Shown here one piece after another: positions 58,798 through 61,858 of a stretch of DNA of 64,000 nucleotides (positions are counted from its first letter, which is position 1; each line of letters begins with the position of its first letter). This DNA comes from Cytophagales bacterium (GTDB lineage Bacteria > Bacteroidota > Bacteroidia > Cytophagales > 172606-1). The position numbers and the translations under genes were made by a program. The notes beneath the pieces are model-generated. The model saw only the letters and a list, made by a program, of their open reading frames with translations, was not told where the DNA came from and did no database searches. The DNA lies in contig JAUJNL010000016.1 of assembly GCA_030448185.1 (NCBI GenBank), positions 1 to 64,000 on the forward strand. Direction: 5' to 3'.

Positions 58798-58891
58798 GCC
58801 GCAAGCTCTATTTCGCTGAAGCTGGACCTACGATCTTCTTTTGCGCCTCAGGGCGTTTCATTGTCTTTTTTATACGGGTTTTATTTTAATT

Positions 58892-60372
58892 ATGAAAAAA
58901 CTGCCTTACGCTATCCTGACTGTTTGGTATGTGCTTAGTTGCTGGATCGTACTTCCGGTATTTTCCCAATCACAAACCCGCGTGGCTCCAGGCAAAAAGC
59001 CGATGAATGTCTTGTTCATTGCCGTCGATGATTTGCGCAATGAGTTAGGCTGTTACGGCCAATCCCCATTATTTCGCCCCATATCGACAAGCTGGCCGCG
59101 GGGAATGGTCTTTAACCGGGCCTATTGCCAGCAGGCCATTTGCTCCCCTTCCCGCACCAGCCTGCTCACCGGTCTTAGGCCCGCTACTACGAAAGTAACG
59201 GATCTGAGGACCCATTTCAGAAATACGATTCCTGCTGCGGTGACGCTGCCCCAGTATTTTAAGCAACAAGGGTATTATACCTTTGCCATGGGAAAAATTT
59301 TTCATAATGGATTGGACGATTCCTTATCCTGGAGTCAGCCTTCCTGGTGGCCACAGCCCAAAGGAGAAAAGTACGTGAAGCCGGAAAACCGGGAGCTGGT
59401 CAACAACAAAGAAAAAGGCCCGGCGTGCGAATCGGCCGATGCTCCGGATAATGCCTACCAGGACGGCAAGGTGGCCGAACACGCCATAGAGGCGCTGAAA
59501 ACGGCACAGAGGAGCCGGCAACCCTTTTTATGGCCGTTGGCTTCAGCAAACCTCACCTTCCGTTTGTGGCTCCCAAGAAATACTGGGATATGTACGACGC
59601 GGCTACCATCAAACTGGCCGACAACCCGGATCATCCCCAGCACATGCCCGAAATCGCCCTTACCAATTCCGGCGAAATGCGGTCTGGCTATACTATTCCG
59701 CCGGGCGTAGTTGGCGATACCCTGGCCCGCCACCTGAGACACGGTTATTACGCCTGCGTGAGCTTTGTGGATGCCCAGATCGGAAAAGTGCTGGCTGAAC
59801 TAAAGCGTCTGGGACTGGAGGAAAAATACGATTGTGATTTTATGGGGCGACCACGGGTTTAAGTTGGGCGAATACCGGGAATGGGGCAAACACACCAATT
59901 TTGAACTGGATGCAAGGGTGCCTTTACTCTTAAGCTATCCGGGAATGAAACAGCCAGGTAAAAAGACGAATGGAATTGTTGAGCTCGTTGACGTATACCC
60001 CAGTCTGTGTGAACTGGCGGGGATTCCGGTACCCAACGGCCTGGAAGGCACCAGCTTTGTGCCCCTGCTCAAAAATCCGGAAAAATCCTGGAAACCGGCC
60101 GCCTTTAGTCAGCATACGCGGGAATTTTATAAAAGGGATCTGTATCCCAACCGGGACGTGATGGGTTACTCGATCCGTACCGACCGGTACCGTTTTACCC
60201 GATGGCAACGCGGACCCGCCAGTAAACCCGAGGAAGTGATTGCCACTGAATTGTACGACTATCAAAAAGGCTCCCAGGAAAGGTAAACCTGGCCAATGAT
60301 CCGGCGTATGCCGCACTGGTCAAGGAGATGACGGCACTACTTGAAAAAAGGAGCAAGCGCCGCCTTGCCTAA
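58892..60372 (+). pseudogene. Iduronate-2-sulfatase-like sulfatase, frameshifted
   Basis: About 490 codons. Signal MKKLPYAILTVWYVLSCWIV; metal ligands NVLFIAVDDLRNELGCYGQS; active-site signature CSPSR (Cys to be oxidised to formylglycine); LPQYFKQQGYYTFAMGKIFH; FSKPHLPFVAPKKYWDMYDA; ILWGDHGFKLGEYREWGKHT; VDVYPSLCELAGIPVPNGLE. Shifts at about 59070, 59530, 59835 and 60283 break the frame. The end NLANDPAYAALV...KRRLA is at 60372. It would remove sulfate esters from a sulfated polysaccharide, with the GH51 and beta-helix proteins of the locus. Confidence 0.9.
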
Positions 60373-60393
60373 ATAAAGCGTACTTACAACCTA

Positions 60394-61646
60394 GTACTGT
60401 GTAACCTTAGTTCTTGAGAAGAAGTACTTAGCTAAGTACCAATGTAAAAAGGAAATGGACCGGGTTATCAAGTCAGTATCACTGAAGGCAGCAGCAGTAG
60501 CACAGTTAGAGAGTATGTTAGGGAAAGGCACTCACCAAGTGCGAATGCTCAAACGGGCCCAGGTATTACTGAGGCTTCATCAAGGATTAAAGCCGCAAGA
60601 GGTAGCTCAGCAAGCAGGAGTAAGTCTGGCCACGGTCTATAATATCACGGGGCGCTATAATGAGAGCCGCAGCTAGTGGATGCTCTAGAGGAGAAGCCCC
60701 GGAGTGGTCAGCCGACTAAGTTTAGTAAAGCGGCTCAGGCTCAACTTACGGCTTTAGCTTGTAGTGAGGCACCAGAAGGACACAGTAAGTGGACATTAAG
60801 AATGCTGGCCGATAAACTGGTGGAACTCCAGGTAGTAGCGTCCGTATCGCATCAGGCGGTAGGGGAACAATTAAAAAAAATGAGCTTAAGCCTTGGCTGA
60901 AAAAGCAGTGGTGCATCGGTAAAATAGACGGGGAGTACTTAGCCAGGATGGAGGATGTCTTAGACGTATATAGTCAGCAGCAACCAGTAGGAGAAAAGCA
61001 ACAGTGCGTGTATGTTTTGACGAACGTCCTTGTCAGCTGATTGATGATGTTATGACTCCGCTGCCTGTCAAACCCGGCAAGTCGCAAAAGCAGGATTATG
61101 AGTATGAACGCAAAGGAACGGCTTGCCTTTTACTGGCTTACGATCTGGATACGGGCCAACGGTATGCCCAGGTGCGGGAGCAGCGTACCAAACAAGATTA
61201 TGCCCAATTTATGGATTGGTTAGTGAAGAACATTATCGGAGGCGGACAAAATCCATTTGGTGCAGGATAATTTAAACACCCATCAGGCGGGCAGTTTTAC
61301 GAGTACTTACCCGTAGAGAGAGCCTATGAGCTAAAAAACAAATTCGTTTTTCATTACACCCCGATCCATGCCTCCTGGCTCAACATGGTAGAAATAGAGT
61401 TTTCCGCCCTTTCCAAGCAGTGTCTGGATCGAAGAATTGCTACGATTGATACCTTACGGCAAGAGGTAATGGCTTGGATGAAGGAACGTAACGAAAAGAA
61501 AGTCAAAATCAATTGGCTCTTTGATACCCCTAAAGCTCGAACCAAACTCAAAAGGCATTACAGTAAAGTCAATCCCGAAAATGAACCAATGGTAGATGCT
61601 GATAATAATACTATTGCCTCTTCTAATAACTAAGGTTACAGAGTAC
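60394..61646 (+). mobile_element. IS630-family element (decayed)
   Basis: 1253 bp with inverted ends GTACTGTGTAACCTTAGTT and (complement) GTACTCTGTAACCTTAGTT. TA flanks both sides (60392-60393, 61647-61648), the normal IS630 target duplication. The transposase is spread over several frames: HTH (VRMLKRAQVLLRLHQGLKPQ, 60455-60676), LEEKPRSGQPTKF, CFDERPCQL (first Asp), KIHLVQDNLNTHQAG (second Asp) and HASWLNMVEIEFSAL (Glu). At least four indels or stops make it inactive. Confidence 0.88.
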
Positions 61647-61648
61647 TA

Positions 61649-61792
61649 GTACCCCGCCAATTTAGTTTTTATAAAATCGTGCATCCGCATTTTGGAATGC
61701 GGATGCACAGAGAAGCGCATTTTAAATGCGCCTTTCCGAAAGTTCCGCATTGAAAATGCGGAACAACTCAAAAAATTAAATTGGCGGTGTAC
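61649..61792. mobile_element. MITE-like element with three internal hairpins
   Basis: 144 bp. The ends are inverted: left GTACCCCGCCAATTTAG, right (complement) GTACACCGCCAATTTAA. TA lies on both sides (61647-61648, 61793-61794). Inside are three hairpins: GCATCCGCATT-ttgg-AATGCGGATGC (61681-61706), GCGCATTT-t-AAATGCGC (61715-61731) and GTTCCGCATT-gaa-AATGCGGAAC (61742-61764). All share a GCATT/AATGC core. It directly abuts the IS630 element, sharing its TA. Confidence 0.85.
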
Positions 61793-61858
61793 TAGTCTGC
61801 CAACCTTTTGCCATTCCTCACCCCTAACCCGTATTGCTAAACCCAACTCCCATTTACA

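Follow-up and report, generated by a model that had tools for sequence, protein, structure and literature searches.

Among small repeats, REPs and MITEs are generally regarded as distinct classes that depend on different enzymes for their mobility. RUP, a MITE of Streptococcus pneumoniae related to IS630-Spn1, is a non-autonomous element of about 107 bp (PMC2229807). The MITE family analysed here, family A, resembles RUP in its TA target, in ends that are like those of a resident IS630 and in insertions at other insertion sequences, but neither a REP-type array nor an interior common to MITEs of other transposase families is reported for RUP (PMC2229807). In Bacteroidetes, the RAYTs (REP-associated tyrosine transposases, TnpAREP) of subclass 2.6 (group 5) are about 180 aa long and carry NH[LIV]H, WQ and YIH[QN]NP motifs, and the structures that flank their genes are termed atypical and lack GT[AG]G (PMC6006769). 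The array inside family A is like these REPtrons in that hairpins of its class flank RAYT genes in related genomes, have copies elsewhere in the genome and show no GT[AG]G tag; it differs in lying inside MITEs with no adjoining RAYT in its host genome, and subclass 2.6 REPs have been published only as "atypical secondary structures" (PMC6006769). In REPINs, too, inverted REPs form a mobile unit depending on an enzyme encoded elsewhere, but the present array has three hairpins and appears to move by DDE-transposon ends with target site duplications (PMC3116915). Mosaic TIMEs of the Tn3 type are likewise non-autonomous and composite, but have Tn3 ends, and the abstract describing them mentions no REP cargo (PMC4133298). 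An earlier report of the capture of a REP array by transposon ends was not found in the open-access literature searched.

The window analysed here is a stretch of 64,000 nucleotides from a Cytophagales bacterium, whose assembly (G000) comprises 6.4 Mb in 207 contigs and is 75% complete. Positions 61647-61794 hold a MITE of 148 bp that is flanked by TA and contains three stacked hairpins (Table 1). We consider it probable that this element is a chimera, with an IS630-derived MITE outside and a RAYT-type REP/BIME array inside, and that the array was captured by several transposon end-sets. An earlier note, made from the sequence alone, had described a three-hairpin MITE-like element at 61649-61792 that shares its TA with an IS630. 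The element is real, its previous limits being those of the MITE minus its two TAs, and the exact limits place the common TA at 61647-61648. The idea, also raised there, of a REP array captured by IS630-like ends is upheld by arms that match a genomic IS630 and by a core found in other vehicles, in none, and beside the RAYTs of relatives.

Table 1. Features of the MITE and the abutting insertion sequence (positions in the window).
Feature	Position	Strand	Remarks
IS630-family insertion sequence, ends TAGTACTGTGTAACC...GGTTACAGAGTACTA	60392..61648	+	TIR pair located; transposase broken into several frames
Family A MITE, complete, TA to TA, ends TAGTACCCCGCCAATTTA...TAAATTGGCGGTGTACTA	61647..61794	+	10 genome copies; TA at both ends in 8/8 scored
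TA common to IS630 right end and MITE left end	61647..61648	.	CTAG target preference in most other A copies
MITE left arm TAGTACCCCGCCAATTTAGTTTTTATA	61647..61673	+	Matches left end of IS630 C73:30544
MITE right arm, reverse complement TAGTACACCGCCAATTTAATTTTTTGAG	61767..61794	-	Matches right end of IS630 C73:30544
Three-hairpin REP/BIME-like core (~88 bp)	61680..61767	+	Match to covariance model R1; same core in families B, C and TIR-less copies
Hairpin 1 GTGCATCCGCATT-TTGG-AATGCGGATGCAC	61679..61708	+	
Hairpin 2 GCGCATTT-T-AAATGCGC	61715..61731	+	Stem with compensatory changes between families
Hairpin 3 GTTCCGCATT-GAA-AATGCGGAAC, then AAC	61742..61764	+	Reverse strand: 5' GTTG tag and hairpin

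The MITE of the window folds with a minimum free energy of -80.7 kcal/mol on the plus strand and -78.8 kcal/mol on the minus strand (z of -12.4 and -14.1), the two strands folding almost equally, and 0 of 200 shuffles folded as well. The outer hairpins of the core are inverted to each other. With up to two mismatches, the motif TTCCGCATTNNNAATGCGGAA was present at 112 sites of the genome, against 2 for a reversed control pattern.

Ten copies of family A are present in the host genome. Its arms match over about 27 nt the ends of a genomic IS630 (C73:30544-31843, and partly C126:55961), as seen with ACTAGTACACAACCAATTTAGTTTTTA against ACTAGTACCCCGCCAATTTAGTTTTTA; the left arm agrees at about 25 of 27 nt, and the right arm also matches strongly. 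The difference between the left (AATTTAGTTTTTA) and right (AATTTAATTT) ends is kept between the MITE and this IS630, and a DDE_3 transposase agrees with the IS630 assignment. Since its arms match genomic IS630 ends, family A is a RUP-like IS630-derived MITE. Duplication of TA, on which the earlier note had staked its reading, was observed on both sides of all eight copies with both ends scored, and CTAG is the site of most copies. The copy on contig C159 splits a response regulator; when the flanks are joined with one TA the reading frame is continuous, and the receiver-domain match has an E value of 6e-7, versus 3e-3 for the left part. The copy on C73 was not used as evidence of frame restoration: its joined frame is PAS-like, but within a few codons of the junction there is a stop, in place of which the query had W.

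As previously remarked, the MITE and the adjoining IS630 both start with GTAC and otherwise differ at their ends; they are different IS630-type elements, their ends diverging beyond TAGTAC. Two ORFs of the window IS630 (60455-60676 and 61004-61270) gave the Pfam matches HTH_23 and DDE_3. Elsewhere, a family A copy on C180 lies at the end of a 107-bp TAGTGCATT...TGCACTA element, the partner IS630 on C126 lies at the end of the same element, and another A copy, on C16, adjoins an IS630. The TA common to the window IS630 and the MITE is explained by insertion of the MITE at a CTAG formed by the end of another element, because CTAG is targeted and such an end offers the site. The two copies of the 107-bp element, at L082 (C126) and L004 (C180), are 100% identical. 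Upstream in the window, the sulfatase-like gene at 58841-60286 is broken up over three frames, like the IS630 transposase, and these frameshifts may reflect real decay or assembly indel errors.

A search with BLAST and the covariance model R1 revealed about 80 copies of the three-hairpin core in the host genome, with a mean column identity of 82%. The core is held by family B, with ends GGGTGTACGACAAA, and by family C, with ends TACTACTTTAACACTTTA, and is also found without recognisable ends (L020, L118, L172, L179, L187, L198 and L200). Family D (ends GAGGGGYGGTC) contains a related array of four hairpins of the same type. The target site duplication of family A is the 2-bp TA; that of family B is 8 bp, exact in 23 of 36 copies (0.66 expected by shuffling), and that of family C is 4 bp in 7 of 10 copies (2.15 expected). 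For family D it is probably 10 bp, the length seen in two copies. Unequal duplication lengths mean different transposases, and an autonomous partner was identified for family A only. Six of 60 cores lie in ORFs, versus 51% of random positions. With their palindromic form, high copy number, extragenic location and inverted orientation, the units of the core show the features by which REPs and BIMEs are recognised. An 864-kb sample of the host genome, made of hand-chosen stretches mostly from gaps between known copies and so gauging the completeness of the catalogue rather than frequency, contained no single scattered GCATT hairpins other than those of the window copy and of degenerate B-type copies. 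The catalogue of core copies is therefore nearly complete, and the present-day spread of the array seems to occur only as MITE cargo.

A tree of the core, built on about 86 positions and with weak deep branches, separates A, B, C1 and C2 as distinct clades with TIR-less cores between them, while the half-armed L197 falls within C1. These families might also derive from a single capture followed by stepwise change of the ends through nested TIR replacement, an account that bears on how many captures there were and leaves the REP nature of the core untouched. We regard it as possible, though on balance doubtful. Within its own TIR, C1 retains a left arm like that of B (GGTGTAYGACAAATTGCAG), and the partial copies L018, L055 and L197 carry that arm alone, so that the captures by B and C may not be fully independent; however, no arm sequence is common to A and either B or C, and the TIR-less cores that branch between the families have unrelated flanks.

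The wider distribution of the core was analysed with its covariance model, which matched 26 of 292 genomes from the order, among them the host genome (E up to 1e-4). A DNA search of 98 relatives returned the host genome alone, the wider family being visible only with the model. The best foreign genome (G135, 75.8 bits) carries the array as GTTAGTCAAGATTTG.AATCTTGACT, a short hairpin and AGTCCGAATTG.AAATTCGGACTAAC; no TIRs were seen at its free arrays, which occupy several places with unrelated flanks. The exact pattern GTTCCGCATTNNNAATGCGGAACAAC had 0 matches in a scan of genome contigs, and plasmids and phages gave no match. One viral contig matched TTCCGCATTNNNAATGCGGAA, and 25 single matches to this motif scattered over phyla were read as chance or terminators. 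Model matches in another genome (G007) are REP clusters of similar type for which homology to the core is not claimed.

Y1 transposase genes were present in all 24 foreign genomes searched. Hairpins with an ATTnnnAAT apex lie within 350 bp of 13 of 54 RAYT-type loci, a proportion that is no order-wide rate as the 24 genomes were picked for array matches; 12 of these 13 loci have two or more, and arrays are often on both sides of the gene. Within the same genomes, the density of these hairpins is 1.58 per kb near RAYT loci versus 0.20 per kb further out, and none of the 15 IS200-type Y1 controls has them. The strongest case is the RAYT of G135 (L358), flanked on both sides by arrays with GTCAAGATTTGYAATCTTGAC, and downstream also with CTTATACAAGCCCGAATTGTAAATTCGGACTAAC, that are nearly identical to the free three-hairpin copies of that genome. 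All six RAYTs tested passed the NF047646 cut-off. In length and in motifs (NH[LVCI]H, WQ or WE in most, and YIHxNP) they fit or approach subclass 2.6. The tag of the core is GTTG or GTTC, and the canonical 5' GT[AG]G of subclasses 2.2, 2.4, 2.5, 2.7 and 2.8 is absent, which excludes the canonical RAYT subclasses only. GTTG also precedes the hairpin in some RAYT REPs of this bacterial family (L099, L215 and L220), as in hairpin 3 of the core. No GCATT hairpins were found beside the three RAYTs (L095, L096 and L099) of the 75%-complete host genome; the cognate RAYT may be missing from this assembly or may have been lost. The REP pair flanking each of these three genes differs from those of the other two; L096, for example, has AGGTCAGGTTTGAGAACCTGACCT around it.

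We aligned 14 sequences from the host genome and three others (G135, G175 and G154). Changes on both sides of the stem are observed in 17 of 27 pairs, a value reached by 0 of 500 shuffles. In the same alignment 97% of cells pair, versus at most 45% for slid structures; because the sequences were retrieved with a model built on the same structure, the pairing percentage is biased in its favour, whereas the compensatory changes are less affected. The hairpins are kept among copies, as the earlier note had required. The pattern that it proposed to look for, covarying stems with drifting loops, is present between genera but only partly otherwise: within the genome hairpin 2 alone compensates, and the apex is partly conserved, ATT...AAT being nearly invariant in the alignment.

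These data bear on the view that the element is an ordinary IS630-derived MITE whose interior hairpins evolved by chance, their likeness to REPs being convergence. Family A is plainly a MITE and has a partner IS630, and the interiors of bacterial MITEs are commonly strongly base-paired (PMC2229807). Nevertheless, convergence is improbable: the same core occurs within ends of differing duplication lengths and without ends, and its architecture recurs beside RAYTs in other genera with compensatory change.

In two copies, L062 (C42:9069) and L204 (C168:1), hairpin 1 has grown into a perfect stem that reads AAATGCCCGGCTATACACATCCGCATT...; the added sequence seems to be a copy of the downstream side, made by a templated template-switch mutation. 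Because hairpin 1 was perfected in this way at C42:9069, template switching can keep stems matched without selection, and compensatory change therefore shows that the hairpins are maintained, not that they act as RNA. Selection of the hairpins as a functional structured RNA on mobile elements (a terminator, attenuator or small RNA), akin to the structured RNA-coding element that the earlier note had offered as its other option, would suit the very stable fold, the compensatory changes and the 54 of 60 cores outside ORFs, but is very unlikely, as the searched window has no Rfam family match at gathering score, both strands fold near-equally, orientation to neighbouring genes is unbiased (11 with, 9 against, 5 convergent and 6 divergent) and RAYT genes have arrays beside them, often on either flank, as with DNA-level REPs.

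Our preferred reading thus remains the capture of a REP array by transposon ends. The ancestral unit would be an array of a GTTS tag, a long hairpin, a short hairpin, an inverted long hairpin and CAAC, such as flanks RAYT (Y1 HUH) genes in the order, and a RAYT would first have spread it. Ends may then have arisen or inserted on both sides, so that the ends of three or more transposon systems (A with TA, B with 8 bp and C with 4 bp) would have come to enclose the array, a related array being present in D. Captured arrays would then have been amplified as cargo of these MITEs, family A presumably being moved in trans by the IS630 transposase with duplication of the TA target. More speculatively, and with little confidence on our part, the array might benefit its carrier, for instance by attracting a RAYT or a host factor or by directing insertion into hairpin sites between genes, and hence be a favoured cargo of unrelated DDE transposons, with two modes of mobility, single-strand through RAYT and double-strand through DDE enzymes.

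One REP-type array as the cargo of several end-sets in a single genome would illustrate how a family of REPs can outlast its RAYT or part from it. The core also provides the REPs termed "atypical" in Bacteroidetes RAYTs with a concrete anatomy, made up of a tagged long hairpin, a short hairpin and an inverted long hairpin, the apex being ATTnnnAAT, and this makes a model-based search possible.

An 18-19-nt repeat, TAGCTTCGCTGAGA(A)TAGT, is found at the same loop point of GCATT hairpins in families B, C and D: in hairpin 1, inverted in hairpin 3 and as a variant in hairpin 2 (L101-L130, L173, L182 and L187 in the genome; L229, L245 and L252 in the sample). A reading of the 18-nt loop insert as hairpin-specific was dropped, the insert also being found alone elsewhere in the sample. 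Copies L145 (C70), L035 (C138:10062), L164 (C205:35114) and L187 (C32:22876) have lost one end or have none, and their flanks carry imperfect 20-40-bp duplications of neighbouring DNA, often a hairpin. Finally, the right arm of a family B copy (L059, C36:4117) contains tandem repeats of AACAACACGAACAAAGTTTA.
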